IMG/VR virus record: IMGVR_UViG_3300047551_000294
Location: 1 to 20,675 of that record
Reading direction: 5' to 3' (one strand)
Length of the DNA: 20,675 nucleotides
DNA from: a virus
Below, piece by piece: positions 110 to 16,235 of this stretch. The stretch's first letter is position 1. Each line of letters starts with the position of its first letter. A program made the position numbers and the translations under genes. The notes below the pieces were generated by a model. That model did not search any database. It was not told the origin of the DNA and saw only the letters and a list, made by a program, of their open reading frames with translations.

Positions 110-296
110 GATAGCTTGGGAGCACGTACCGCCGGGAGGCGGCATTTTTGTACCCACATTAAACCCACAACGTACTATAGAGAAGATATACCGCTCTGCA
201 ATGGAGTCGCGTGTGTTTACGCTTAAGCCAATCGTTTGTATTCTCAACGGGCAGCTAGGCGTTTACTTTCAGCGACATCGGCAACTAAGGCTTTAG
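66..296 (+). CDS. Small plus-strand phage protein, function unknown
   Basis: A 76-codon frame starts at GTG 66, with GAGGA at 51-55 ten bases upstream. It differs from the usual antisense shadow because its residues look like a real small domain: a Trp then VPPGGGIFVPTL (about residues 18-32), a helical stretch with IEKIYRSAMESRV, and a C-terminal LNGQLGVYFQR. I recall small uncharacterised phage proteins with a W-x-x-VP-x-GG-x-F-x-VP pattern and a terminal G-x-x-GV-x-F-x-R, but I cannot confirm homology here. It converges on the giant minus-strand gene and shares its last 53 bases with that gene's 3' end (244-296). It would mark the junction between a late minus-strand operon and a plus-strand module. 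The start is uncertain: TTG 99 is an alternative. A shadow frame remains possible. Confidence 0.5.
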   Translation: MLTQSEYQYRKLKTKIAWEHVPPGGGIFVPTLNPQRTIEKIYRSAMESRVFTLKPIVCILNGQLGVYFQRHRQLRL

Positions 297-3200
297 CCAA
301 CTCAATACGTTCCTGACGTATATCGTCAAGCTCCTTGCGCTTTTCCGCAGGGGTCATGTTGGGGTCTGCACGGATCTCACGTTCTTCTCTCGCAAGGTCG
401 CCCATCTTCTTCTTGAAGCGTCCAGCATCTTTTGACATGTCAAGGAGAGGTTCGTTCTCTTTCTCAAACGCAAGCACTGCTGCTTCAGTACCTGTTCTTT
501 CAAGCTCTTTCAACGTACGTTGGCGCTGCTCAATGTCTCGCATCTGCTCGTATGCAAAGTTGATAAGACCCGTTCCATCTTTAGGCTGGAACAGCCCACC
601 GATCAAAACTGTGCCGCTTGCCCGTGTCTCTGGCTTGACTGTGGTCGTATCTTCCAAGACAGGGTTGGCAAGACTCATCAGCGCCGGAGCAAGACCGCTG
701 AAGTAGTTACGGAACAAGTAGTCAATCTGGATGGGCGACAAGCCGTACTCTTTTGTACCCACCGTCACGGTAGTCATCTGGCTAAGAAGTTTAGAAATCT
801 CTGTCGTGTTCTGTCTGACACGCATAGCGTTAGTCATGTCCATCTCACGCTCACTCTCAATCGCACGACCACCATAGAATGAGTAGTTGACTGCGACTTC
901 AAGTGCTGGCTTGATGAACTGCGGCAGACCGACAGGTACGCTGTTTGCAACCATAGCCTTTATTGCAGGCATGTTCTTCTGCAATGTCTCGTCAGTTGTT
1001 GCCATGTTGTACAGCATCTCAGGCAACGCTTTGAAGATATAGCCAAGTTCAAACGGGATGGGTACACGGAGGGGTTCTTCAACTCCTGGTATATACACAA
1101 AGAAGTTAGTGTACTTATCTTCAGGGGACGCGTTCTCGTAAGCCTCATCATCCTGCATCAACGCAGCGTATGCCACAGCAGTCGCCGCAAGCAACGCGCC
1201 CCGTGTCCACAACTTCTTACGAACATCAAGCTGATTCTGACCGTACATCTTGCCTGTAAATGCACGGTATACAACGTCCAGACCTTGGATCTGCGCGTTC
1301 ATAAACGGCACGAGCATGCTCAGCATGTAAGTTGTTGGGGAGTATCCACGACGCCCAAAGTTCATGGACTCCAGTGCTCCCATCGTGGCTTCCATCTCCG
1401 ACATGCCCTTCTTGCGGAAGTCATCATAGAGCGCAACACGTGTCGCAGCGTCAGCCTTCATGGACAGTGCATCGAGTCGAGCAAGCTGGTAGTTCAGCGT
1501 TTTACCGCCGTTGGCAAGATCACGGATTAAGTTCGCCATATCTTCTGGTGAACCCGTAATAGTCTGCCCTCCAAACACTCCACGCTTCTTCAGAATATCT
1601 TCTGCGTTACTCGTGCCTTTGATCATTGAGGGGAGTTGTTTTACGGCTGAGTAAACGGGCACGATGTCTGCACCTGTTACAAGCGCAGCCGCAGAGGTAT
1701 CACGTACAAGCTGGCGCAACATGTACACAGGGTTGCGTGTAACAAATTTACGTAGGATCTGTGCAGGCCCAGTGAACAAACGCGCCATGAACGGCAGCGT
1801 CATAGACACGCCTTCAAGACCTTTTACAAGGATACTTGCGTCAATGCCAATTTCTTGCAGCTTATCTTCATCGATAACTGCTGAGTGCGTCTCACCATTG
1901 ACCTTGAACCGCACTACGTTTGGACCTTCTGGTTTAGCGTCTGGCTTGATCTTGGCAAACTGCAACGCTTCAAGTGACGTAGCCACACGGCTAGACGCTA
2001 GGTTGCGCAGTGCCATGTCTGTCAGGATGGACGTGTTCTGTATGGAGCTTGTGAAGAAGTCAACAATGTGCGTGTTGCCACCAACAAGTTCACGTAGGTA
2101 CGGCTGCTCTTTCAAGCTACCGATATTGATGGGCACATCTTCTGTACCAATGCTTAAAAACACCTGCTCCTTCTTCTCATCAACACGGTAGAAGGGGATG
2201 TAGTCTTTGGTAGCGTTGAGTGTTTTCGCAAGATCTTTGGAAATAGCGCCCGTAGCCTCAAGGAAGTTGATGAGGTTCTTGTTGTACTCGTTGTATTGAG
2301 TACGTGCTTTTTCAAAGGCGTCTTTGATCTCAGGCTTGGCGTTGATGTATGCGTCAACGTCCTTCAGCATGTCCACCGAGATACCACCCTTGGCGGGGTC
2401 CGTATTAAAGTTCAGCTTGCGCAGCCCCACGCTTGGGTTGTTCTTAGCGCGTTGGTGGGCCATATAGGTCGTGAACAAACGGTTGGCAGCGTCAGCGTCA
2501 ATACCTGACTCGCGCAAAGATTCAGAGATCTCACGCAGACTCACGCCAAACCCAGCCTCTGGGATGAACTCCATACTGCCATCAGCTTTGGGGCGCTGCA
2601 CCATTTTCATACCGCCGTGGTTGACCACAGCAGACGTAAAATTCATGCGCTGGTCGTGCATCCGTGAGTAGTACACAGCCTCAAACATCTGCTGAGCTTG
2701 TGCCAGTTCGTTGTCCTTGGCGTACTTAAGCACTTGCTCAAGCGGATCTAGCCTGTCCACAAACCGCGCTCTAAACTCCCCACCACGCAGGGTATTTTTT
2801 AACCGCTCAACAACACCTTGCTCAGCGCCAGTGATTCGCTGAACAGTGTCCGCAACATTGGCAGGCATGTCAGCGGGGTAGTTAACTGAGAACAATACTT
2901 TAGACGTTGCGCCTTTTGTGCCCAGTACGTCTTTAACACCTTCTTTAAGGTCACTTACTTCTGCGGCTGTAAGGATCTGCTGTTGCTTATCGTAGAAGTT
3001 AACGTAGTTAGCGCCTTTTCTCCCTTGATGCTTATTGCCTGCAATTCCATAAGACCAGAGTAATTCAGACGCTGCTTTTTGTAATTCAGTGTACCCCAAC
3101 CCATCTCGAAAATATGGGTCTTTCACAGAAACAAGAATAAGTTTTTTTCGATCATCCGCAATTTTTTTAACAGTATCCCCTTTATTGCCTTTTATAACTT

Positions 3201-6200
3201 CTTGTGCGTATAAATACGCAGGAAGTAAATTTGCAGCAAATAAACGGTCGTTTTCTTTGTCAAGCAATTCTTTTAACACGGCCGCATCTTCAGGGGTTGC
3301 CAAATCATTTAACAATTCATCAAAAGATTTCTGAACGTGTTTGGATTGTTCGCTTAGCGGTTTTTCTAATTCCCAGTATTCATCTTCTTTACGCTCACGA
3401 ATAACGCGCTTTAGATACGTAGAAGATTTGACTGGGGCAGAAACACTATAAACAAACGAGAAATCTTTTAAAAGTTTGTTTAGCTCTTCAGGCGAAAAAC
3501 TATAGCTATCTAAATCTCGATCAATTTTTAATCGCTCAATTAACGCGTCAACAAGTTGGGAGTTGTTGTTTGAGACTAAAGCTTCGATTATTTTTTTAGA
3601 TTCTCCAAAATCAACTGCCATATCAATATAGTGCGTAAACGCGTCAATCAAATCAGTAATGTCTGCTAATTTTCCATACTCTTTTTGTAGTTTTTTAAAC
3701 TCTAAATCCGTAACATCAGGGATAGCTTTTACATAATCACTAAATGCCTTGTCTCTTATTACGGACAGCTCTGCACGTGTTTTACCGTCAAATCTAACGG
3801 CTGTCTTATAATCAAACTTTATTTTGGGTTTATTTAACTCAAGCTTTTTATTTAGTTCTTGTCTAGCGTAACTAAGCGCAGTCCCCGGTCTAGTAGCCGT
3901 GTACGTGCCCCACATATACGCTTGCACACCTTCGCCAGTGCCCATGTATGAATGGTCGAACTCTTGGAACGTAATACCCGTGCCATGCCATTCACCACGC
4001 AGTTCAAAATCAGCAGCACCGTACGCAAAGTCCACAAAGTCTTGCGCGGTCATGTTCTTAATTTCTTTGGCAAAGTCAGGTCCAAGTAACTTGCCAATAA
4101 TCTTCTTGAAGTTCTCGTACAGGCGGTACAAGAAACCTGCAACTGGGCCTTTACCTTTTTCTGTGGGGTTAACGCCAGCTATAACAGCTTCTTCTACAAA
4201 ATAAGCCAGTATCTCGTCATCACGTGTTTCAACATCAGGTGTTTCATCTGCAAACGCATAGTCAACGCGCTGCATAGCTGCTTTAGCAATCTTGGATTCT
4301 TGTGATCCGTCGTCACGCTTAGCCCAAGTCTCAACCTGATTAACAAGCGCTTTGTATTGCGCATCGCCCAACATATTACGGAAGCCAACGTGCGCACCTA
4401 CCTCATGGAGGAATACCGCAAGCTCTTGTCCTTTTGGGATATTGCTGGCAATTAAATACACTTCGCCATACGGTGTTACGAAACCACGAGCGTCAGTTGG
4501 GACGTTGTAGTATTCGCCAATGTTTTTTCCAAGAGATTTAACGTCAGGGTAAACGTATACGTTTTTGTTATCCCAATCGGTTACTAAGGGGAATGCCCCT
4601 TGAATAACTTTACGAACCTCTGCAACCGTCGTTGGGTTTTCTACCTGCCCACGTGACTTCAGGATACCCTTGCGTTCAAAGTAGTCCCGTATGCTTTGCG
4701 CTTGCGGCACATTTTCAAGCTCAGACATATGTGCTATTGCATTACGTCTTGCATCGCGCAGGGCACGTGCGTATTCTGCACTCTTAAACCCGTAATCTTT
4801 AGCTGCCTTCTTAACATCAGGCGCTGAGTAAGACATGGCATCAATTTCATATTGCAGTTTGGCTGCTTCTGTAGCCCGTGTCTTTGGCGTACCTTTTGGC
4901 TTGTTAAAGTTTTCATCAATGATGGCAGCAATACGCTCGTTAGAAGCATTAATCAAGGTTTGAATTTCCTTGATGGCTTCCAGACGATTGTCTTTAGCCG
5001 TTATGAGCGTGTCGCGTAGTGGTCCTTCAATTTTAGTTTTCTTGCCTTTTGCAGCAAGCGCTTTATCGATGGCTTTGATGTCGTTTTTATATACGCCTAC
5101 TTGTGCAGCAAGCTGTTCTTCAGAAATACGGGGTATGGATTTATCTGCACCTACCGTACGCATCCTAGCGTTTTCAAATGCTTGGGCAAGTTCAAGCGCC
5201 TGAAGGTCAACATTGCCGCCTGTGGCCTCAAATATTTCTTTTTGCTCAAGCAGTAATTTCTTTGTCTTACCCAACCGAGCGCGTTGTGCGCCTTTGGCCT
5301 CGGCAATTTGTTTATCAATATCTTGAATACGCTGCTCGTATTTTTGTTTTTCTTTTTCGGTAGCTTCTTGAACTCTGCCAAGCTGTGCTTTCTCAAGCGC
5401 TTCTAAATTAAACGGCGCAGCAGTAATGGGTTGCACATCAAGACGTTGAACAGGCTGATCTTGCAGGATGGCAAGGTCTTGCCGAAGCGCTTCCATCTTG
5501 CCGTAGAGCGCAGCCATCTTACTTGTAGCTGGGCCTACCTTATCTTGTTCTCCCTTCTCAACTTGTTTCTTAAGCTTGGACAACTGACTACGGATGTTCT
5601 TAACTTCGCGGTCGTACTTCTTCTTAAGCTCAATCGTATCTTCGTCAGTTTCAACGACCACAGCTTTACGCTCAACTTTTGTACCGGGGAGGTTAAGTCC
5701 CAGTTGGACTGCTGCAAGCTGTTCACGCTCTGCGTCCAAAGCTTTACGTGTTTCGCTTAGCTTCTTAGTTGTTTCCAACATCTGTTTACCGCGAGCAAAC
5801 TCACGATTAGCGCGGTCAATCCGCGCATCAATTTCACCAGAAGTCGGTGCCGCCGAACCCGACCTAACAACCTCAACAGCTCCCGTCCTGCTGTCATACC
5901 GCATGTACGTGCGAGCATTTTTGTAAAGTGTCTCAACAGCTTTGGCTAACTGCGCCGCAGATATATTGCGTTCGTCAGTAGTACGGTCAAAGTCTAATTG
6001 TGCTTTGGCTAGGTCTGCTTCAAGCTTATTGATCGTGTTAACAGTTTCCTGAACGATCTTGTCTGCGTCACGATACGCCTCTTTAAGCTCTGACTTATAC
6101 GCCGCAGGAAGTTTTTCGTACTGCTTAATACGATCACGTTCTTTTGCAAGCTGCGCTTTTAACGGAGCAAGGGCTGCATTTTTACGATCTTCAAACCCAT

Positions 6201-9200
6201 CAATATACGTTTCAAGCGATCTGAAGCGTTTGGAAACATCGTCGTAGTTGTCTTGCGCAAACGCAATTCTTTCTTTTGCTTTTACTGTTTTTTCATCATC
6301 CGGCTTAAACAAAAGCATGTCTCTGCGTTGTTCAAGCTCACGTTTACGCTGGTTTAATACTTCAACAACTTGCGCACGACCATTGTCGTTTTGCAAATTA
6401 AACAGCGTGTTTTGCGCTTTAGATAATGCTTTGAAAGTGTTTAGCCATGCGGTAAGTGCATCCGCTTTAGAGGGCGCTACATACTCAAAATACGATTTAA
6501 CCGTGTAGAGATCTGCTAACTTATTAGACAGGGCGTTAATCTGCTCTTGTATGCTGTCAGCCATTGAAGCTGCACGGCCCTGATCCTGCTCTTTTGTAAG
6601 CTCATTGATCTTGGTTACAGCGTCATTGATTTCTGCTTTAGTTTCTTTTAACTGCGCATCAATAGCCTGCATACGCTCAAGCGCAAAATCACGCGTAAGC
6701 ATTTGAGCAGACATCGTGCTCACATCAACTTTAGCGGCTTCAAGAGGTTCAGTTAATTTAGCAGCGTCTTCTTTCAGTATTTTTGCAATTGCGTTTAACG
6801 CTGCCTGACGTTGAGCGAACGTACTGTAGGTAACAGCCGCTTGCGCCGCAGACGTAGATTGATCAAGCATCCCAAGCTGAACTTGCAACGCGGCAAGTTC
6901 ATCCACAGTGGCTTGGAATTCAGGAGTAGGTTTAACAACGTTTGTAACCGCAGCCTGTGCCTGTTTTACAGGCGGTATCTTTAGCCTGATTGAATTTAAC
7001 AAACGCTGGAAGTTAGCCGGAGAAGCGCGAGTTGTACCAAGATCAAGCAGCACATACTTCATGGGCTTTTTACCCGCAAGCATGTCTTGTAGTTCAGCTT
7101 CGCGTTCTTTACGGTCTTGCCGCAGTGCAGCAGGGGCTTTTTCTAAACGCGCAATCTCTGCTTTAATTTCTTTAGTACGGCGTTGTGCGCTTGCGTACTG
7201 CGCACCAAACTGCGCCAAGGGCATCTTCTTACCCTTAAGCGATCCTTCAATTTGTTGAAGCTCTTTTCGCAACTCAGGTAGTGTGCGTTTGGCTTCCTGC
7301 TCAACACGCTCTGGAGAAAATAGCTCAAGCTGTCCTTCAGGAATGCCGCCTTCTGGAACTTCTTCTTTTTCCTCAGCGACAACTGCTGCTTTACGTGGTG
7401 CAGACTCAATCCCCGGCAGCGTAAACTGCTCGCCGGGAATAAACGAACGAGCTGGACGTGCCTCACGTGCCAACGCTTTATCACGAATCTCTGCAAGTTC
7501 TTCTTGTGTCACAAACAGCGCACGAGCAAATGGACGTGCTGCCTGTGTGCCAGCCTTCATATCCGCAGCAAGCTGCTCGCGGGTGATGTTTTTACTAGGC
7601 GTAAAGCGTGGTAACTCCTGCGGTCTGCGAATTTCTTCTACGACTTTTTTGTAACGTGCTTCACGAATAACTTTACCCTGCCGCATCACAGCAGGCTCGA
7701 CAAGTTCTTCTTGAATCTTAAACCCAATAACTTCCGGGTAATACTCTTGCGCCCGAATCATCAGCTCGTCCATCTTCTTGGCAAGCTGTTTAGTTAAAGC
7801 ATTTCTTTCTGGGGTGCCTACTCCGCTTACCCCTTCTGCTCGGCGTGTAGCGTCGATCTCATCAATGACGGCAATGATGTAGTTGTTACGGTACGTTACA
7901 GCTTGCTGAAGTGCATCTTTACGTTTTGCAAGTGAATCTTTCTTAAACTGCTCAAACGTAGGCATCATGTATTCCTGCCCACGCGCTGTGGCTTCTTCAG
8001 CCATTGACGCTACGTAGTAACGATACCCGCGCTCAGTCTGCCCTAGTTTTGTCTGACGTAGCTCATCAAGGGCAGAAGCAAAATTACTAAACTCCTGATC
8101 TTGGCGACTCTGTGCATCTTTAATAGACTCACGTGCTTTTGCCCCGCCAACCTTGACCTTGGCTTTAATCTGCTCAATCTCTGTATCACGCTGAGTAATT
8201 GTTTGCAGCGTCGTGTCGTAGCGTTGTTGTGCTGCGGCAAGTTGTTCTTCGCTAGCTTCAGGCTGCGCAGTGAGCGCGTCAAGTGCTGTCTTGGCTTCTT
8301 GTGACTGCTTAACTGCCGCATCACGTTCCTTCTGAAGCTTGGCTATACGCAGTGCGTCATCGCCACGAACTAACAACTCCTCAGCAGGTACACCAAGATC
8401 TTCAACGCGCTTCTCAGGTTGATTTCGTTTGAGTGCATTTAACTCGTTGATCCGCACCTGTGTAGCAAATGCCTTTAAGCCATCAGGCGTAAACGTATTG
8501 TCAGGCGTTACAAGCTGCTTATCTTCTGCAAGATAACTCTGTAATTTTTCACGCTCTTGTGCAACACGATCTTCAATCTGGTCAATGGACTGAAGTCCCA
8601 GTAACTTCTTTACAAGCGGCGACAGTTCGCCTTTACGAACAGCGTCCATATACTGGGCACGTTCTTCGGGTTTTATTAGCCCCAGTGCACGGAGACTTAC
8701 AGGACTATCAAGCGAACGCTCCACACGCTGAAGGGCAATGTCTTCAGTTTCTGCCGAGCCCATCATGAGCTTGGCTAGTTGTTTTACATCACGGCGAGCT
8801 TGTTCTTCCGCAGCACGTGCTTCTTCCACACGCATCTTTTCTTGGCGCTCAGCCATGCGCCCTTCCAAAGTTTCTGCTGTCTTGGCGGGGGGCAGCTCTG
8901 CTTGATAACCAGTGTCAACTTCTTCTGCTGTACGTTCTGCGCGTCTGGTTGCTTCAGGGTATGCAAACCCTGCTGGCGTTTCCATGAACAGTTGTTCACC
9001 ACCAACCTGCGGTGCTTGCGCTTCAAGCCGCTGACGTTCAGCGCGTAGCGTTTTAATTTTTTGCGCAAGCTCGCCAGCCTTCTGACTTTCGCCAAGCTCG
9101 GCTTGCTTTTGCATATTCTTGAGCAGCTTAGCTTCTTCAGCCTGTAGTACCTTGAGCGCTTCCATCGGATCAGGCACAGCGTTAATAGACGCTAGCTGTT

Positions 9201-10527
9201 CTTCAATCTGTTTACGCCCTTGGATTAATGGCGATAGTTGCTGGCTCATTGCCGCAACAGCATCCACGTCACCCGTCTGCGTAGCCTGTGCAATTTGTTT
9301 TTGGTAATCCTCTATTGCGCGAGATACACGCGCATAGTCTTGTTGTAACTCTTGAGTTTCTTGTGTGCGATCTACAACAGGCGCAGGAGCCTGCATCTGC
9401 GGCCCTGTCACAGCAGCTTCAGCTAAATCTAAGGCTCGTTGGTCCGCAGCAAACAGAGGCACCCCTGCTTCTTCTGCACGACGTTGACGGTCTGCAAGCT
9501 CTGCCGCTTCAGCCTTACCCTTTTCTTCTTCAGCGCGTCTACGTGCAACTTCTTGCTTTATCTTTGTTTCAGCCCGTGCCTGCTCACTACCACGCTCAAA
9601 GTATCGGCCTACTGGCGATATAGCCCCGCCCAGCACTGCACCGCCAATAAAACTATCCACGTACTCACGACGTGCGTCAGCGTCTGCAATCTTTAAGCCA
9701 GCTTGTAAACGCTCAATAAACTGCTGGCCTGTTTCTGTAACACCTTCAATCCCGGCAGTACGTGCACCTGTCGCAGCGTAGTCAGCCAACGTGCGCTTAA
9801 AACCCTGCTGTGCAATCTCTTTAGCTTGAGCTTCTGTAAGTTCTTTACCAACAGACTTAAACAAGTTACGGACAAGTGGCAGCGCACGGAAACTAACCAC
9901 ATCAAGCGCAGCTTGCGGCACAGCCGCAATAAAAGCAGTTGCCCCACTGGTCTGCTCTAGCCCCGCGTTGGGGTTAATACGTTTGACTTCTTCAAGCTGC
10001 CTTGCAAGGTTTGATCCTGTGAACTGCCCAGCAGAGGTAAGTCCTGCGGCTGCACCGGCAGCTAACGTGCCAAGCGTTAACCCCCCAACAACAGGAGCGG
10101 CAGCGGCAGCGGCGGGTATAGCCAAAGTACCAGCGGCGGCAGCAAGCGGCGCCGCCATATAAGGTAGCGACCCACCAATTAATTCTCCAAGTTTTGTAGG
10201 AAAAGCTTCAAGATACCCTTTTTCGGTGGGTTTATATATGCGTTCGCTTTCAGCTTTTTGTTTTGCTTGAAATTTTTCTGCTTCATCTAAACCCATCAAC
10301 CCTAGCTTGCCAGCCGTAAGTGCGGCTTCACCTTTAAGGGATTCAAAGCTTGATTTAGCGCTGCCTGTTAGCCCAGACAAAAAGCCTTCGGGTTCCGAAG
10401 GTCTAGCTTTTGCTTGAGGTCTACTTTGTTGAAGCGCGTAACGGTACGCTTCAGCGTCTGTCAATTCACGTGGGGAAGAAACCTCAAATGTCCCACGGCC
10501 CGGAATATTGACTTCATAAGTAGGCAT
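244..10527 (-). CDS. Giant polyvalent phage protein (zincin-like, ART-like and LPD38-type domains)
   Basis: This 3427-residue protein is probably packaged and ejected with the DNA. The start is ATG 10527, with AAAGG at 10534-10538 six bases upstream. Domains seen: residues 1-30 a small beta-like element (YEVNIPGRGTFEV); about 115-165 very hydrophobic Ala/Gly helices that could insert in a membrane; about 330-1950 long charged, Gln/Ala-rich coiled coil; about 1960-2170 a zincin-like metallopeptidase with H2041-E2042-V-G-A-H2046 and a candidate third ligand E2105 in DDEILAYFVEE; about 2177-2515 an ADP-ribosyltransferase-like domain (HGT at 2181, GTGEGVQAYMWGTY, later KPLSEQS and NYVNF); about 2520-2920 a helical region with DYIPFYR near 2776; about 2925-3300 an LPD38-type segment (RNPVYMLRQLVRD). 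Large multidomain proteins with such parts are known from phages and plasmids as polyvalent proteins, thought to enter the host with the DNA. Enzyme activity is inferred. The ART-like part is strongly AT-rich (about 3020-3860). It is the last gene of the operon. Confidence 0.9.
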   Translation of the reverse strand: MPTYEVNIPGRGTFEVSSPRELTDAEAYRYALQQSRPQAKARPSEPEGFLSGLTGSAKSSFESLKGEAALTAGKLGLMGLDEAEKFQAKQKAESERIYKPTEKGYLEAFPTKLGELIGGSLPYMAAPLAAAAGTLAIPAAAAAAPVVGGLTLGTLAAGAAAGLTSAGQFTGSNLARQLEEVKRINPNAGLEQTSGATAFIAAVPQAALDVVSFRALPLVRNLFKSVGKELTEAQAKEIAQQGFKRTLADYAATGARTAGIEGVTETGQQFIERLQAGLKIADADARREYVDSFIGGAVLGGAISPVGRYFERGSEQARAETKIKQEVARRRAEEEKGKAEAAELADRQRRAEEAGVPLFAADQRALDLAEAAVTGPQMQAPAPVVDRTQETQELQQDYARVSRAIEDYQKQIAQATQTGDVDAVAAMSQQLSPLIQGRKQIEEQLASINAVPDPMEALKVLQAEEAKLLKNMQKQAELGESQKAGELAQKIKTLRAERQRLEAQAPQVGGEQLFMETPAGFAYPEATRRAERTAEEVDTGYQAELPPAKTAETLEGRMAERQEKMRVEEARAAEEQARRDVKQLAKLMMGSAETEDIALQRVERSLDSPVSLRALGLIKPEERAQYMDAVRKGELSPLVKKLLGLQSIDQIEDRVAQEREKLQSYLAEDKQLVTPDNTFTPDGLKAFATQVRINELNALKRNQPEKRVEDLGVPAEELLVRGDDALRIAKLQKERDAAVKQSQEAKTALDALTAQPEASEEQLAAAQQRYDTTLQTITQRDTEIEQIKAKVKVGGAKARESIKDAQSRQDQEFSNFASALDELRQTKLGQTERGYRYYVASMAEEATARGQEYMMPTFEQFKKDSLAKRKDALQQAVTYRNNYIIAVIDEIDATRRAEGVSGVGTPERNALTKQLAKKMDELMIRAQEYYPEVIGFKIQEELVEPAVMRQGKVIREARYKKVVEEIRRPQELPRFTPSKNITREQLAADMKAGTQAARPFARALFVTQEELAEIRDKALAREARPARSFIPGEQFTLPGIESAPRKAAVVAEEKEEVPEGGIPEGQLELFSPERVEQEAKRTLPELRKELQQIEGSLKGKKMPLAQFGAQYASAQRRTKEIKAEIARLEKAPAALRQDRKEREAELQDMLAGKKPMKYVLLDLGTTRASPANFQRLLNSIRLKIPPVKQAQAAVTNVVKPTPEFQATVDELAALQVQLGMLDQSTSAAQAAVTYSTFAQRQAALNAIAKILKEDAAKLTEPLEAAKVDVSTMSAQMLTRDFALERMQAIDAQLKETKAEINDAVTKINELTKEQDQGRAASMADSIQEQINALSNKLADLYTVKSYFEYVAPSKADALTAWLNTFKALSKAQNTLFNLQNDNGRAQVVEVLNQRKRELEQRRDMLLFKPDDEKTVKAKERIAFAQDNYDDVSKRFRSLETYIDGFEDRKNAALAPLKAQLAKERDRIKQYEKLPAAYKSELKEAYRDADKIVQETVNTINKLEADLAKAQLDFDRTTDERNISAAQLAKAVETLYKNARTYMRYDSRTGAVEVVRSGSAAPTSGEIDARIDRANREFARGKQMLETTKKLSETRKALDAEREQLAAVQLGLNLPGTKVERKAVVVETDEDTIELKKKYDREVKNIRSQLSKLKKQVEKGEQDKVGPATSKMAALYGKMEALRQDLAILQDQPVQRLDVQPITAAPFNLEALEKAQLGRVQEATEKEKQKYEQRIQDIDKQIAEAKGAQRARLGKTKKLLLEQKEIFEATGGNVDLQALELAQAFENARMRTVGADKSIPRISEEQLAAQVGVYKNDIKAIDKALAAKGKKTKIEGPLRDTLITAKDNRLEAIKEIQTLINASNERIAAIIDENFNKPKGTPKTRATEAAKLQYEIDAMSYSAPDVKKAAKDYGFKSAEYARALRDARRNAIAHMSELENVPQAQSIRDYFERKGILKSRGQVENPTTVAEVRKVIQGAFPLVTDWDNKNVYVYPDVKSLGKNIGEYYNVPTDARGFVTPYGEVYLIASNIPKGQELAVFLHEVGAHVGFRNMLGDAQYKALVNQVETWAKRDDGSQESKIAKAAMQRVDYAFADETPDVETRDDEILAYFVEEAVIAGVNPTEKGKGPVAGFLYRLYENFKKIIGKLLGPDFAKEIKNMTAQDFVDFAYGAADFELRGEWHGTGITFQEFDHSYMGTGEGVQAYMWGTYTATRPGTALSYARQELNKKLELNKPKIKFDYKTAVRFDGKTRAELSVIRDKAFSDYVKAIPDVTDLEFKKLQKEYGKLADITDLIDAFTHYIDMAVDFGESKKIIEALVSNNNSQLVDALIERLKIDRDLDSYSFSPEELNKLLKDFSFVYSVSAPVKSSTYLKRVIRERKEDEYWELEKPLSEQSKHVQKSFDELLNDLATPEDAAVLKELLDKENDRLFAANLLPAYLYAQEVIKGNKGDTVKKIADDRKKLILVSVKDPYFRDGLGYTELQKAASELLWSYGIAGNKHQGRKGANYVNFYDKQQQILTAAEVSDLKEGVKDVLGTKGATSKVLFSVNYPADMPANVADTVQRITGAEQGVVERLKNTLRGGEFRARFVDRLDPLEQVLKYAKDNELAQAQQMFEAVYYSRMHDQRMNFTSAVVNHGGMKMVQRPKADGSMEFIPEAGFGVSLREISESLRESGIDADAANRLFTTYMAHQRAKNNPSVGLRKLNFNTDPAKGGISVDMLKDVDAYINAKPEIKDAFEKARTQYNEYNKNLINFLEATGAISKDLAKTLNATKDYIPFYRVDEKKEQVFLSIGTEDVPINIGSLKEQPYLRELVGGNTHIVDFFTSSIQNTSILTDMALRNLASSRVATSLEALQFAKIKPDAKPEGPNVVRFKVNGETHSAVIDEDKLQEIGIDASILVKGLEGVSMTLPFMARLFTGPAQILRKFVTRNPVYMLRQLVRDTSAAALVTGADIVPVYSAVKQLPSMIKGTSNAEDILKKRGVFGGQTITGSPEDMANLIRDLANGGKTLNYQLARLDALSMKADAATRVALYDDFRKKGMSEMEATMGALESMNFGRRGYSPTTYMLSMLVPFMNAQIQGLDVVYRAFTGKMYGQNQLDVRKKLWTRGALLAATAVAYAALMQDDEAYENASPEDKYTNFFVYIPGVEEPLRVPIPFELGYIFKALPEMLYNMATTDETLQKNMPAIKAMVANSVPVGLPQFIKPALEVAVNYSFYGGRAIESEREMDMTNAMRVRQNTTEISKLLSQMTTVTVGTKEYGLSPIQIDYLFRNYFSGLAPALMSLANPVLEDTTTVKPETRASGTVLIGGLFQPKDGTGLINFAYEQMRDIEQRQRTLKELERTGTEAAVLAFEKENEPLLDMSKDAGRFKKKMGDLAREEREIRADPNMTPAEKRKELDDIRQERIELAKALVADVAESKRLAAR
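3020..3860. other. AT-rich patch inside the giant gene, within the ART-like domain
   Basis: Hand counts of single 60-base lines give about 32% G+C at 3121-3180, 33% at 3481-3540, 35% at 3541-3600 and 35% at 3601-3660. Flanking lines give 57% at 2401-2460 and 52% at 3961-4020. The patch encodes residues from about 2222 to 2500, the interior of the ART-like domain. The conserved N-terminal motif of that domain (HGT, GTGEGVQAYMWG) lies outside it at normal composition. The reading frame runs through both edges without a break. Edges are approximate. Confidence 0.75.
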
Positions 10528-10536
10528 CTAACACCT

Positions 10537-12321
10537 TTAGTCTTTTTTCTTCACCGTTACACCAGCGGGCATACCACCAGCTCCACCAGTCATTTGAGCA
10601 ATAAAGTCTTCAACACCATTGTACTTGTCGCGTTCGGAACGCGGAAGATCGTTGAACGCCGCAGCAAGTCTTGCTCGATCCGCAGCAGACACTTCTGATT
10701 TGCCTTTTGTTAAAAACTTATCAAGCGCGTCATTAAATGACATATTTCCGCGTTGGGCAATTCCATCAATTACCCGCAGCGTGTCGGGCGCCATATTTGC
10801 AATTTGAAGTTTGGTTTGGCTGCTTAGTTTTTCCAAATCAAATCTGGACTTAATTTCAAGATTAAGCATTCTTTCTTTAAGTTGCCGGTCTAAAGCCCCT
10901 TCTCGTTCTTTTAACGCACGTTCTTCTTTACCTTCAGTTTCTCGGGAACGAAGCTGCGCCACCACTCTATCCATCTCAGCTTTGAGTGTTTCTTGGAACT
11001 GGTTTTCTTTCATAACTGCATCAAGATCGCCACGCTTCTCGGCGCGATCTGCGCGAGTAGCACTAGCTTTAAGTGCTGCCATATCCATTTCAAACTTACG
11101 CTCTGCATCTTGTTGCCCAGAAACAAACTGCGCTGCTGCCTGACCTGCTGCACCGGCTGCACGTTTACGTGGAGCTGCCCCATATGCGGCTAATACATTA
11201 GCAAGACCTGCAAGCCCAGCCTGTTCCTTATACTTTGCTTGCGCTGCTTTCATTTCTTCAGCTTGTGCGCGTAGCTCATCCCCAGCCCCGCCCGATAACC
11301 CAAGTTCTTGCATCAGTGTTCTACGCGCAGCAAGGGCTTGGCGTAATCTAGCTTCTTGGGTAAGTTCAGGTCCAACTGCACCTTGTTCTTGTGCTGCGGT
11401 CTTTTGCTGCTCTGCAATACGCTCAAGTTCCCCACGTAGCCCTGCACTGGCTGAAGCATTTTCTGCGGAAGGAAAATCGATACCAGTAGCCGTAGGTTCT
11501 CTTGTCGCAGAAGGGGTTATTGAAGCAAGACCTGCGCCTTGCGATTGCTGTTGTCTCTGACGTGCAGCGGCTGGAACACCTCTGTCTAACCCGAGAGATG
11601 CAGTGTCGCCAACAGAAGGGGCGCGTTGTCCAGCAGCAGGGGCAACAGCAGCAGGGGCAGCCTGTGCTTGAGGCGCATTACGTTGAGCTAAATAACTTCT
11701 TCCAGCTTGAACATCTCGCTCAAGCGCTGCTAACTTGCCAAGTGCAGCGGGGTTGGTAATACTGCCTGACGCAAGTCCGCTTTTTATACGCGCAAGTTCT
11801 TGCTCATCTTCTTTTAGCTTTTCTTCGTCAAAATCTACAGCGCCGCCTAAGCGCTCGTTACGTCCAAAAATATCAAAATACTCTGTACGTTTATACCGTG
11901 GGGGCATGACAAAACCTTGAGATTGATAACGCTCAACCTTCCCACCACCGTCAAATGCAACAATACCGCCCCCTGCGTATCCTTTCTCAACAGCAGGAGC
12001 AGGTAGACTCTCTAACCCTCTGGCCTGTGGCACCTGTATAGGTTGTTGACGCTGCTGCATTGCAGCAAGCATTTTTTTAAGCTGTGCGTTCTCCATCATG
12101 GTTTTAGCCATGATTGATGGTGTCTGTGCCGGATCACCCATCGCAGCAGCTTGCTCACCCATCGCGCTCTGTATTCTCTGAGCACGTCTTACTTCTTCAG
12201 CCTCTGCGTCATCAGGGCGAACTTGGGGATTAGGCGACATGGGGGATTGATACTGCCCCAACCGCTGCTGAGTAATCCCAGGGTTCTTAAGCGCTTCTTG
12301 CATTTGAAGACGGTTAAACAT
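10537..12321 (-). CDS. Helical internal-virion-type protein with a Gly-rich GGGIVAF element
   Basis: A 594-residue protein with ATG 12321 and AAGG at 12329-12332 upstream; the SD overlaps the preceding gene's TAA. The N-terminus (MFNRLQMQEAL) is a short helix. Residues about 111-143 hold a Gly-rich stretch with YAGGGIVAFDGGG followed by MPPRY. Residues about 200-290 are Ala/Gln/Pro-rich and probably disordered. Residues about 300-525 are long amphipathic, charged helices likely to form coiled coil, including an Ala-rich AGLANVLAAYGAAP segment near 360. The C-terminus ends in a Gly-rich tail and a KKKD cluster. No enzyme motif is visible. Its place between the small virion protein and the giant polyvalent protein, and its helical build, resemble internal or ejection proteins of short-tailed phages. 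That role is inference. A tail-associated scaffold is the main alternative. Confidence 0.8.
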   Translation of the reverse strand: MFNRLQMQEALKNPGITQQRLGQYQSPMSPNPQVRPDDAEAEEVRRAQRIQSAMGEQAAAMGDPAQTPSIMAKTMMENAQLKKMLAAMQQRQQPIQVPQARGLESLPAPAVEKGYAGGGIVAFDGGGKVERYQSQGFVMPPRYKRTEYFDIFGRNERLGGAVDFDEEKLKEDEQELARIKSGLASGSITNPAALGKLAALERDVQAGRSYLAQRNAPQAQAAPAAVAPAAGQRAPSVGDTASLGLDRGVPAAARQRQQQSQGAGLASITPSATREPTATGIDFPSAENASASAGLRGELERIAEQQKTAAQEQGAVGPELTQEARLRQALAARRTLMQELGLSGGAGDELRAQAEEMKAAQAKYKEQAGLAGLANVLAAYGAAPRKRAAGAAGQAAAQFVSGQQDAERKFEMDMAALKASATRADRAEKRGDLDAVMKENQFQETLKAEMDRVVAQLRSRETEGKEERALKEREGALDRQLKERMLNLEIKSRFDLEKLSSQTKLQIANMAPDTLRVIDGIAQRGNMSFNDALDKFLTKGKSEVSAADRARLAAAFNDLPRSERDKYNGVEDFIAQMTGGAGGMPAGVTVKKKD

Positions 12322-12330
12322 AATCCCACC

Positions 12331-13050
12331 TTACTTTAAGATGCCTGCGTATTTCAACATAGCAAGAATTGACGCTGCGCTGCTTAAGTTCTGCATGTTG
12401 CTTGGGCCTTGTTCGTAATAACTTTGCGTAGCCATTGGGAAACCACTGATTAAGTTTTTACGGAACTCAAGCATTTGTTGCGGGTACTTATACTGTTCCA
12501 TTTCAAACGCAGCCCGATCTCTGTCAATCGCTGCTTGATCGGTTGCTTGTTTTTGCGCACCGATACCGTACATTTGACTTAATCGGTTTACATCCGCTCC
12601 CAGCGCTTGCAGCCCGTACTGTTGCGCGTTTTGATAAGCCGCTTGACTGCCTTGCATCTGAATATCGCCAAGCTGTCGTTGCAAGTTACGATCACGTTCA
12701 GCTTGTTGGATAGCATAACGGCTCCCACCAAACGCTCCTGCGCCTACAGCTCTAGCCGCATCAGTCTGTCCTGCAATATTAGAAGTCCGCGTTGCTTCAC
12801 GCTTGGCAACATCAATGACGTTTTGTTGGTAGGGGTTGATGTATTGGGTATAAAACGAAGCTGATTGTGGCGAAGCTAGCGACCCTAAACCAGTTATTGC
12901 ATTTGTTTGAGGGGTAGAAAACCCAGCCGACAACGGTTTGTCATAGGGCACATAGGGCAACCCAGCAAACGCTTCACCTTGTTGAAGTAAACGCTCTACA
13001 TACGGCCCCGCCCATGTAGATAAACCAGAAGTGGTAGAAGTTGTTGCCAT
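12331..13050 (-). CDS. Small virion-type protein with conserved GAFGGSR motif
   Basis: A 239-residue protein with ATG 13050 and GAGG at 13056-13059; the upstream gene's TAA (13053-13055) lies within the SD region, so translation is probably coupled. The N-terminus is Ser/Thr-rich (MATTSTTSGLS), followed by a Pro/Tyr-containing segment (GLPYVPYDKPLS). INPYQQNVIDVAKREA begins near residue 70, and AGAFGGSRYAIQQAERDRN lies at about 103-122. A Gln/Ala-rich helical part (about 115-200) and a hydrophobic end (SAASILAMLKYAGILK) follow. I recall the INPYQ...GAFGGSR pattern from proteins of uncultured aquatic phages that are usually left as hypothetical or structural. Position among structural genes supports a virion component, perhaps an internal protein. 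No catalytic motif is visible and no firm function is assigned. Confidence 0.85.
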   Translation of the reverse strand: MATTSTTSGLSTWAGPYVERLLQQGEAFAGLPYVPYDKPLSAGFSTPQTNAITGLGSLASPQSASFYTQYINPYQQNVIDVAKREATRTSNIAGQTDAARAVGAGAFGGSRYAIQQAERDRNLQRQLGDIQMQGSQAAYQNAQQYGLQALGADVNRLSQMYGIGAQKQATDQAAIDRDRAAFEMEQYKYPQQMLEFRKNLISGFPMATQSYYEQGPSNMQNLSSAASILAMLKYAGILK

Positions 13051-13052
13051 GT

Positions 13053-16000
13053 TTACCTCGGCATAAATTTACTAGGATTAATCTGTTTACCTTGCTTGGT
13101 AGTGCCGGTACGTTCTTTGCGGATGCGATCCATCATGTCATACAAAACTTGTGCTCCGGCACTTGAGTTGCCGTTACCAAGATGACTGACTACATCCGCA
13201 GGAATTACAAATTCGCCGTCACTTAGTGCAGCAGGGCGTTTACCATCAATGTGCGCAGCAACTTTATCTGCCATACCGTCAGTAATACCGCCTAAATATC
13301 TAGGTGGAAGTGTACTGCCGCCCTTTGCCATTGCCAATCCTGCCAACCCACCTTGCGCAAGCTTTCCCGGACCTTCATAACCAACAGGCGGCGTGTACTG
13401 AATAGGGCCAAACCTTTGGAAATACGGATCTTCGTAATAGTCGTAATCTGAAGGAGGCTTTGTGTATGTCCGCTTTGCAGTCCACGGTTGCTTTAAGTTG
13501 GGGTTGTATCCGGGGTCTCTATTGCCTGCATCGTCTGTCAACCCTGGAATTGTTATTGGAGTAACAACATCAACTTCACACTGTCCTGTTGTAGCGCTGC
13601 GGGTGTACCCTGCGGGGCAAGGATCTTCTTTAACAACATCATTACCCCCACCGCCTTTAACCGTGTCTTCAGGTATCGGGTCAATACAAAGACCTGTTGT
13701 AGCGTCAACGACTTTATTTGGATTAACACAAGCACAATTACCAAAGTCGTCTCTAAATTTATCAGGGCCACACCCTGTTACGGTTACTGAAGCTTTACAC
13801 GCGCCGGTTACAGGATCTCTTGTTTCGCCCGCACCGCAGACAGGCTTGCACTCATTACCAACTTTTTCTTGCCCTGCACCGCAGACAACGTCGTTTCCTC
13901 CCCCGCCTTCAACAGTAGTTTTAGCAGGGAAGTCAACACAGCCTAGTACAGGATCAAAGTCTTTACCTTGAGCAAGGCATAACTCACGTGTAGCTGTAAC
14001 AGTAAGTTTGTCGTTACCTCCACCACCTGTAACTGAAGTAGTACCTCCACCACCTGTAATATTAGACGCGAAGTCAACACAGCCTAGTACAGGATCAAAG
14101 TCTTTACCTTGAGCAAGGCATAACTCACGTGTAGCTGTAACAGTAAGTTTGTCGTTACCTCCACCACCTGTAACTGAAGTAGTACCTCCACCACCTCCAA
14201 TTGGTGGGCCAATAATATCTAAAAGAGATACGCACTTATTTAAAACTGGGTCGTACCCTAATCCTTGAGCTTCACAGCTTTTAGCAGTAACAGTAACTTT
14301 ATCGTTACCTGTCGCACCTGTCAGAGTGGAAGCGCCAGTGCCTCCGCTAATCAAATCATTTCCACCCCCGCCAACAACTGTGGAAAGATCTGTACCTCCA
14401 CCAGTGCTTGTTACTTCTAAAGGTTTAGGTAGTCCCAGCAAATCAAAATCAGACTCTGCAATGCTAGGGTCAATCCCCAACATTTGATTGCGGATGTCTG
14501 TAATGGACTTACCTTCTTTTATAAGATCTTTAACTATTTGTTGTTTGGTACTTAGCGAATCGTTTGTGTTCCACGTTTTTCCAAACAAAGAATATTGTTT
14601 GTTTTCTGGCGTTGTAACTGTCGATGTCCCTCCGCCACCACCTGTTTGCGCAGCCCCAAGTACAAAGTCAACAGGATTAAAGGTGTCATTACTACCGCCC
14701 CCTGTAACTGTTACGGAACTATTTAACGCGCTTGCAGCGTCAAGATTGCCTTCATCAAAAGCACCTTGAATAAGTTCTACGCCATCATCGCCTGTCAGTT
14801 TTGTGCCGGGGATTTTTATGTCGCCAAGCGAACCAAGCCCAAAACCTAAAGCGGTGTTAAGCAACACTTGATCACCAGTACCACCAGCAAGTGCCGTGGT
14901 TAACCCACTACTTACCGCTGTTGTAACGCCTTTAGTGATACTGTCGCTTAGTTTCCCGTCATCTAGTCCAACAGATTCAAGCGCATTACCTGTAAGCACA
15001 TTAACGGCTTGATTAAACGTTAAATCTTTACCGCCAACAACTCCCAGCGCGTCCCCTGATCCGGGTATAGTGACTGTATTAAGCGCTGTGCCAATTACAG
15101 TACCCTTTACGCCTTGAGCAAAATCCCCGCCCATTAATTCAGAAGCAGCGCCATTAACAAGCGAGGCAACGCCTGTTTTAATTAATGCTTTTTCTCCAGT
15201 AGTCAGTAAAAGATTAGACGCTAAATTACTACCGGCTATGCCTGATTCTGCGGCTACTAAGCCTGCTTCACCACCACCAAGCGCTGTGTTGATCCCCGAA
15301 ACAATAAAATCAGTGACTGTGTTGGTGATAGGTTTGGTTATGATGCTTGTCGGGTTTGCAATAGTGCTTGCGGCTTCACCAACCGTTAAGTTGGAGGCTA
15401 AAGACCCTATTCCTGCTTCTCCAGCCCCAGCAAGAGCTGTGTTAATCCCCAACTCCCCTAAAGCAAGCTCAGACGCCGCCGCAGTACCTGCACCAGCACC
15501 GCCTAAACCTAAAGCTTCCCCAGCCATAGGTCCAAGATACACTGCTCCAGCTACAACTGCTGCTACTTTAGCCGCGTCAATTAGTGCTTGATCAGGGTGT
15601 TCTCCTTTATAAAACTGCCCCTCACCTATAGGAACAAGTTGGTCCCCCTGCGGCACGTATGCTTGTGCTACACGTTCTCTGTCGGGGCCACCTGTTTTAC
15701 CGCCAATTTGAAGAATTACGTTTCCTGCTGATGCGTCTTGGGGAGTGACAGAAGAAGGGTCAACTTCTTGCAGTTGTCCGTTTACGTTTTGGTAGGTCTT
15801 TACAAACGTAGAGCTGTGCGCCAACGAGTCAGCTATTGTAGGATTAGTTGCAACTAAATAATCAACAATAGTGGCAGGACGATCAACAACTTCTTGAGTA
15901 ATACTGTCTCCGCTGCCAACATCAACGTAGTCTTGCGCAGTACCAAAATCAGTAACCCCAACAAAAGGGTTATCTAAATTAATTTCAGGGCCAAGATTTC

Positions 16001-16235
16001 TTTTCGGCTCTGTAACGGGAGCTACGTAGGGGGTTGTATCGCGTATACTTTCACGGGGATCAATACTAAATTCATTTGACTCAGGCAACCCCTGACTTAC
16101 AAGCCATTCAATATCCCCGGAAGCTTGTCCCGCAGCGTATAGATCGTCAGCCGTTACGCCCTTGGATACAAACCAATTAAGCTTATCAAACGGGCCGTAA
16201 GAACCCCAATCCGAAGGTAAACGTGGAATTGCCAT
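13053..16235 (-). CDS. Large mosaic virion-type protein with Cys modules, RTX-like elements and LSDGEFVIPADVV C-terminus
   Basis: A 1060-residue protein with ATG 16235 and GGTGGG just upstream. Parts in order: residues 1-55, a compact N-terminus (DWGSYGPFDKLNWF, then IEWLVSQGLPE); about 215-480, Gly/Ala-rich and hydrophobic with a degenerate repeat around GINTAL (about 262 and 313); 512-866, scattered GGGGND-type elements at 512, 622 (three nonapeptides in phase to 648), 690, 737, 777 and 861, matching the RTX pattern GGxGxDxUx; 654-886, Cys-pair modules holding all 16 cysteines of the protein; about 890-950, Pro/Tyr-rich; about 958-1060, a C-terminal domain with LSDGEFVIPADVVSHLG near 1004. 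I know that last motif from marine and freshwater phage virion proteins of unclear role. A tail, fibre-associated or virion-surface function is inference from position and composition. It is not an RTX toxin: no secretion or toxin domain is visible. Confidence 0.88.
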   Translation of the reverse strand: MAIPRLPSDWGSYGPFDKLNWFVSKGVTADDLYAAGQASGDIEWLVSQGLPESNEFSIDPRESIRDTTPYVAPVTEPKRNLGPEINLDNPFVGVTDFGTAQDYVDVGSGDSITQEVVDRPATIVDYLVATNPTIADSLAHSSTFVKTYQNVNGQLQEVDPSSVTPQDASAGNVILQIGGKTGGPDRERVAQAYVPQGDQLVPIGEGQFYKGEHPDQALIDAAKVAAVVAGAVYLGPMAGEALGLGGAGAGTAAASELALGELGINTALAGAGEAGIGSLASNLTVGEAASTIANPTSIITKPITNTVTDFIVSGINTALGGGEAGLVAAESGIAGSNLASNLLLTTGEKALIKTGVASLVNGAASELMGGDFAQGVKGTVIGTALNTVTIPGSGDALGVVGGKDLTFNQAVNVLTGNALESVGLDDGKLSDSITKGVTTAVSSGLTTALAGGTGDQVLLNTALGFGLGSLGDIKIPGTKLTGDDGVELIQGAFDEGNLDAASALNSSVTVTGGGSNDTFNPVDFVLGAAQTGGGGGTSTVTTPENKQYSLFGKTWNTNDSLSTKQQIVKDLIKEGKSITDIRNQMLGIDPSIAESDFDLLGLPKPLEVTSTGGGTDLSTVVGGGGNDLISGGTGASTLTGATGNDKVTVTAKSCEAQGLGYDPVLNKCVSLLDIIGPPIGGGGGTTSVTGGGGNDKLTVTATRELCLAQGKDFDPVLGCVDFASNITGGGGTTSVTGGGGNDKLTVTATRELCLAQGKDFDPVLGCVDFPAKTTVEGGGGNDVVCGAGQEKVGNECKPVCGAGETRDPVTGACKASVTVTGCGPDKFRDDFGNCACVNPNKVVDATTGLCIDPIPEDTVKGGGGNDVVKEDPCPAGYTRSATTGQCEVDVVTPITIPGLTDDAGNRDPGYNPNLKQPWTAKRTYTKPPSDYDYYEDPYFQRFGPIQYTPPVGYEGPGKLAQGGLAGLAMAKGGSTLPPRYLGGITDGMADKVAAHIDGKRPAALSDGEFVIPADVVSHLGNGNSSAGAQVLYDMMDRIRKERTGTTKQGKQINPSKFMPR
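13929..14055. repeat. Perfect 127-bp direct repeat, copy A
   Basis: This stretch is identical base for base, by eye, to 14070-14196. The period is 141 bp, exactly 47 codons, so the duplication keeps frame inside the 1060-residue protein. It encodes a GGGGNDKLTVTA element plus one Cys pair (CLAQGKDFDPVLGC). Identity at third codon positions points to a recent duplication or to gene conversion. Confidence 0.97.
14070..14196. repeat. Perfect 127-bp direct repeat, copy B
   Basis: This is the second copy of the 127-bp direct repeat, separated from copy A by 14 bases that encode a short linker. Beyond the left and right edges the copies diverge at once. The flanking GGGGG, TTSVT and GGGGND codons form further weak homology that could promote slippage or unequal recombination. 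Confidence 0.97.

Follow-up and report, generated by a model that had tools for sequence, protein, structure and literature searches.

The locus

The stretch of DNA analysed here (the window) is the 20,675-base linear virus record IMGVR_UViG_3300047551_000294, in which all substantial genes lie on the minus strand. Its largest gene encodes a protein of 3427 residues, called the giant below, that combines a zincin-like metallopeptidase domain, an ADP-ribosyltransferase (ART)-like domain and a conserved carboxy-terminal region, the C-module. The gene is a single open frame of 3427 codons read from 10527 to 244, with an ATG start and an AAAGG ribosome-binding sequence immediately 5' of it. The first-pass annotation had described this uninterrupted 10.3 kb frame exactly. 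Its remark that the giant fills half of the window is correct for the record. However, the window is a fragment and the proportion therefore says nothing about the giant's share of the genome. A related contig of 43 kb carries terminase, portal, major head protein, helicase and DNA polymerase genes and still has no tail region, so the full genome must be larger than either contig. Searches of bacterial genomes for prophage relatives returned only five distant fragments, and no host is inferred for this reason.

By gene order and sequence, the giant is the third member of a conserved trio whose layout matches that of podovirus ejection proteins. In about 65 related loci, a relative of the 594-residue gene lies directly upstream of the giant and relatives of the 239-residue gene lie 1.3-2.4 kb upstream. 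Position as the last of three internal-virion-protein-type genes is characteristic of T7 gp16-type ejection proteins, and the giant occupies this position in these trios, as the LPD38 protein does in the gene order of the T7-like phage HTVC034P. The features discussed below, with the evidence used to place them, are as follows (residues are those of the giant).

244..10527, minus strand: gene for the 3427-residue giant protein (P0001); open frame, ATG, AAAGG upstream
10537..12321, minus strand: 594-residue gene, second of the trio; relative immediately 5' of the giant in about 65 related loci
12331..13050, minus strand: 239-residue gene that opens the trio; matches phrog_4287 'DNA ejection protein' weakly (E=1.8e-5)
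10423..10527, minus strand: amino-terminal tag, residues 1-35 (MPTYEVNIPGRGTFEV...); Y..LPDG/PNG-type opening, recognized visually and with a loose regular expression
9889..10158, minus strand: hydrophobic Ala/Gly-rich stretches, residues 124-164 and 195-213; modest hydrophobicity scores (1.4-1.55)
4696..9507, minus strand: long helical, partly coiled-coil region, residues 341-1944; helix-type, charge-rich composition
4138..4647, minus strand: zincin-like metallopeptidase domain, residues 1961-2130; conservation, structural model and motif position
4390..4407, minus strand: HEVGAH motif, residues 2041-2046; HExxxH form
2953..3999, minus strand: ART-like domain, residues 2177-2525, interrupted by an insert at 2226-2440 and with a guanine-plus-cytosine (GC) content of 0.385; family searches, conservation and structural model
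247..2922, minus strand: C-module, residues 2536-3427; homology across podoviruses of several host groups
649..1149, minus strand: Pfam LPD38, residues 3127-3293, within the C-module; E=2.2e-26

A constant core

The C-module is the most widely shared part of the giant. The last ~890 residues recur at 35-53% identity in 80 further contigs. The C-module is found at 20-27% identity in named podoviruses, and it is recognizable by fold in many predicted phage proteins. It is the only part common to podoviruses of Bacillus, Vibrio, Escherichia, cyanobacteria, Pelagibacter and Burkholderia. Its LPD38 match scores 93.5 bits against a curated Pfam cut-off of 27 bits, which bears out the earlier suggestion of an LPD38-type end. 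According to the part of Iyer et al. 2017 (PMC5512222) drawn on here, LPD38 is found only in phage-type polyvalent proteins, and on its domain make-up the giant belongs to this kind of large protein, named in that year. The comparison covered ~120 relatives overall. In one relative (L089), the giant is split into two overlapping frames, 4685-10891 and 10567-12456, by either a sequencing error or a real frameshift.

The zincin-like domain lies at a nearly fixed distance from the C-module. Residues H2041, E2042, G2044, H2046, E2105 and E2113 are invariant among 49 aligned homologous segments spanning the zincin and ART regions. An AlphaFold model of residues 1945-2560 (predicted local distance difference test score 80) places H2041, E2042 and H2046 in one helix (2035-2052) and E2105 and E2113 in the next (2099-2116). 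An HExxH or HExxxH motif on one helix with a glutamate on the following helix defines such domains; the same part of PMC5512222 gives this arrangement for the family and reports the HExxxH form for polyvalent-protein zincins. A Pfam scan of the window protein gave no match to a zincin family. Structural comparison of the zincin part of the model with VIA found lethal factor and MATCAP at Z 4.2-4.9, a range in which chance matches are common (VIA scores below 8 can arise by chance).

Motif position was surveyed in 67 non-redundant giants that had been retrieved with the C-module alone; a further set (L100-L179), retrieved with the zincin and ART alignment and biased for that reason, was excluded. 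HExxH or HExxxH occurs 850-1650 residues from the carboxy terminus in 63 of the 67, compared to 0.2 expected from shuffled sequences, and in 51 it falls within the narrower interval of 940-1060 residues (0.03 expected). Where an ART is also present, the motif lies some 400 residues farther from the end, because the ART stands between zincin and C-module. The zincin-like motif noted in the first pass is thus upheld by its invariant residues and by its position.

Ratios of nonsynonymous to synonymous substitution rates (dN/dS), computed between the window and its close relatives, are 0.06-0.07 for the C-module (over 2536-3300), 0.08-0.11 for the zincin, 0.08-0.25 for the coil (with the length-variable residues 1101-1580 left out) and 0.24-0.45 for the ART insert. 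The C-module and zincin are the most constant and most constrained parts of the protein, and the effector-like part changes fastest. The proposal that coiled coil and membrane helices form the carrier is not supported by this pattern, with the coil among the least constant parts. On these comparative grounds the zincin is part of the core and not of the payload. It is likely to be a self-processing protease, although this role remains putative.

An exchangeable slot

The ART-like domain falls below the Pfam threshold when the window protein is searched alone (ART-PolyVal, E=0.054, 16.1 bits, cut-off 31.2 bits). However, ART-PolyVal is matched at E<=1 by 35 of the 49 homologous segments (best 4.4e-6), and H2181 and Y2209 are invariant in all 49. 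In the model these residues lie in strands 2178-2183 and 2208-2211, respectively, that is, the histidine on strand 1 and the tyrosine on strand 2 as in HYD2-type ARTs; a histidine and a tyrosine at these places are expected of HYD-type ARTs in the part of PMC5512222 cited above. The anti-CRISPR protein AcrIF11 (6kyf) aligns to the model over 133 of its 137 residues (Z 6.5). The earlier assignment of an ART-like domain is supported by these relatives. As to the structure prediction that had been recommended as a check on both domains, the motif helices and the AcrIF11 match agree with expectation, but the scores of AcrIF11 and of the zincin-fold matches all stay in the range below 8 in which chance matches are common.

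The ART occurs in 41 of 124 giants and, with a single exception, lies 123-148 residues past the zincin motif. In each of the 34 giants for which GC content was measured, the ART has a lower value than the remainder of the gene (mean difference -0.08; 0.385 versus ~0.48 in the window). This bias results partly from residue make-up, but it is present at third codon positions too. One relative (L013) is 71% identical to the window protein over residues 107-1102 and 49% over 2536-3427; between them the ART-bearing middle has been replaced, and only the zincin is weakly recognizable. In another (L058) the slot is filled by LPD23. As judged from these comparisons, the ART behaves as an optional, exchangeable low-GC cassette between zincin and C-module. 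The view that zincin and ART lie side by side as a joint payload therefore survives only in half: the ART behaves as a cassette and the zincin as core, and the third catalytic residue of the ART is doubtful in this lineage. The simple equation of two enzymes with a payload was rejected.

Other sequences also occupy the slot. In L155 (residue 1901), L152, L156, L158, L160-L162, L164, L165, L172, L173 and L178, a GMSRRxFLRGAVxAVG sequence directly follows the zincin. It resembles a twin-arginine (Tat) export signal inside a giant protein, with Pfam TAT_signal matching only at E 0.04-0.09. In L165 the Tat-like motif is followed some 260 residues later by LLHELTHA, a second zincin-like motif with a weak match to Pfam DUF6782, a putative metallopeptidase. 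The window protein has an ART in the slot; relatives have LPD23, a Tat-signal-like segment or a second zincin there.

Amino-terminal part, helical region and neighbouring genes

Short Y..LPDG/PNG-type openings begin many otherwise different giants (22 of the 70 full-length giants surveyed for amino-terminal features, by a loose regular expression). A hydrophobic stretch comparable to those of the window protein is present within the first 420 residues in 47 of the 70. The hydrophobic amino terminus described earlier corresponds to the two Ala/Gly-rich stretches, which score modestly and do not lie at the very terminus. A search of phage records with the amino-terminal 420 residues gave no match. 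The ~1600 residues of coiled coil proposed for the region that follows are indeed of helix-type, charge-rich composition from ~340 to 1944, but strong heptad periodicity is restricted to about 1051-1500 and 1801-1950. Within this region, at ~1103-1578, relatives that are 87% identical on either side differ in length by ~300 residues.

Along the direction of transcription, the gene order is a holin-like gene, a phage lysozyme gene, two virion structural genes, a 1060-residue gene with RTX-like repeats, and the 239-residue, 594-residue and giant genes. RTX-like motifs of the GGGGND type recur in the 1060-residue protein (13053-16235; Pfam HemolysinCabind, E 7.5e-5), which also has a carboxy-terminal LSDGEFVIPADVVSHLGNG stretch. 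A AGGGIVAFDGGG stretch in the 594-residue protein (10537-12321) is also present in its relatives.

A probable cargo-carrying ejection protein

The giant is probably an ejection (internal virion) protein of a short-tailed phage, the third of its set and the largest, and probably carries cargo as well. It is likely to travel in the virion and enter the bacterium with the DNA, as the first-pass annotation had supposed, because gp69 of Burkholderia phage JC1, which has the same carboxy-terminal core, is a virion protein. Mass spectrometry of JC1 virions recovered 51 peptides of gp69, and gp67 and gp68 are also virion proteins (PMC9144972). The constant core, the gene trio, the place of the LPD38 protein in HTVC034P and the cassette pattern speak for this reading too, as does the 1945-2560 model, whose best VIA match is a cyanophage A4 pre-ejectosome protein.

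In the proposed mechanism, the giant would be packed in the capsid along with the 239- and 594-residue proteins, and the three would leave through portal and tail with the DNA. The C-module (~890 residues, with LPD38) and the amino-terminal tag would be the constant parts that place the giant in the particle and take it across. Once in the host, the zincin, directly before the C-module, would cut a chain, most likely its own, to free individual domains. The ART-like domain that occupies the slot would be an exchangeable effector that modifies a host molecule early in infection. More tentatively, and with somewhat less than even confidence, aquatic podoviruses may share a modular injection chassis of zincin, slot and LPD38 C-module in which effectors are swapped at one fixed place, and the adjoining position of the zincin would let it free the inserted effector after ejection. 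Giant polyvalent proteins occur widely, and for most of them no function is known. A constant core, a virion example and a single effector slot would allow new injected phage effectors to be found by reading the slot, and the fixed position of the zincin beside the cargo makes the proposed self-processing testable.

Several observations weigh against a cargo-carrying ejection protein. The virion location of the giant is argued from its homologue in JC1 and its activities are predictions, and the 594- and 239-residue proteins have no convincing homology to JC1 gp68 and gp67. T7 gp14, gp15 and gp16 do not match a hidden Markov model (HMM) of the C-module, and VIA comparison of the C-module model with 1,000 chains gave no convincing solved fold, with matches only to the carboxy-terminal helices. 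The best VIA match of the 1945-2560 model, cyanophage A4 pre-ejectosome protein 9k3a_B (Z 9.4), is the sole match above the level common by chance, but with 181 residues aligned of 616 it may rest mainly on the ART. The A4 protein, ORF27L, has neither HExxH nor C-module and no HMM sequence match to the giant. Finally, column 2502 is G in the window and D in 38 of 41 sister ARTs, column 2510 is N in the window and D or E in 40 of 48 sister sequences, and the ART end evolves faster than any other part of the protein (dN/dS 0.31-0.54). This lineage may therefore have an altered or inactive ART, and ADP-ribosylation is not to be assumed.

These last observations would also suit an ejection protein with a structural role, whose ART has ceased to work as an enzyme and whose zincin acts in maturation inside the producing cell, not in processing in the new host. 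However, H2181, Y2209 and D2513 are kept, the last a candidate for the strand-5 aspartate alongside columns 2502 and 2510. In addition, dN/dS is below 1 in all parts of the ART, and the cassette is retained in all four close relatives. This alternative is considered unlikely.

Slightly more doubtful is an anti-defence protein of the kind of P1 DarB or Bcep22 DarB, taken up into the head and injected as payload only, with no part in building the DNA conduit. JC1 gp69 and the relatives in Vibrio phage VvAW1 are annotated as DarB-like, with methylase and helicase domains, and the ART match AcrIF11 is an anti-CRISPR. The giant, however, lacks the methylase/helicase region, and small members of the family, for example that of HTVC034P (1242 residues) at the place of T7 gp16, still retain the C-module, a pattern that fits a structural role better than payload alone. 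An intracellular late protein that is never packaged is highly improbable given the homologue in JC1 virions, the location of the trio among structural genes and the presence of the third A4 trio protein in the pre-ejectosome.

Comparison with known systems

Other searches for known relatives were negative within their scope. Foldseek of both models against the PDB gave nothing at E<=0.001, and profiles of the C-module and of the zincin and ART region gave nothing credible against PDB sequences. A phmmer search with the unaligned zincin and ART segment found no match, and NCBIfam yielded no useful one. Pfam and PHROG scans of the chain gave no polymerase match of the kind expected for an N4-type virion RNA polymerase, with no search aimed at this enzyme.

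Like the phage-type polyvalent proteins in the part of Iyer et al. 2017 (PMC5512222) used here, the giant is a large multidomain chain with an HExxxH zincin and an HYD-type ART, so that, by conservation and model, it holds at least two unrelated enzyme-like domains. It differs from them in having fewer recognizable enzymes. The fixed order of zincin, slot and C-module was not encountered in that part of the paper, within a literature search limited to open papers.

AcrIF11 shares the ART fold but is a stand-alone protein of 137 residues, in contrast to the giant's ART with its ~215-residue insert. ORF27L of cyanophage A4 (Anabaena phage A-4L), also a short-tailed phage, resembles the giant in being encoded third in a trio of ejection-type genes and is the best structural match to the zincin and ART model. 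It includes an ART-like LYHGT...GSGTYFS sequence that is missed by Pfam (L188 20116-25269, residue ~1424).

The closest parallel is JC1 gp69 (Bcep22-like, 'DarB-like', 4515 residues). It carries a zincin (HMM E 1.1e-9) 1,051 residues from its carboxy terminus followed by the C-module (E 3.3e-20, with LPD38 at 1.9e-33), and its gene is the last of the morphogenesis module, preceded by two virion-protein genes. A match of JC1 gp67 to the 594-residue family (E=1e-5 at 12 bits) was rejected as a composition effect of Ala/Gly-rich sequence. The JC1 zincin has the HExxH form, compared to HExxxH in the giant, and an amino-terminal SLT transglycosylase, a methylase, an SNF2 helicase and LPD3 stand in place of the coil and ART.

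T7 gp16 (internal virion protein D) is large and helical and, like the giant, is encoded after the genes of two other internal virion proteins, but it has no detectable sequence similarity to the C-module and no solved-fold match to it. It carries a transglycosylase at its amino terminus (PMC8954989), a feature shared with the giant's homologue JC1 gp69. The LPD38 protein of HTVC034P occupies the position of gp16 in T7, with internal-virion-protein genes on one side and the tail fibre on the other.

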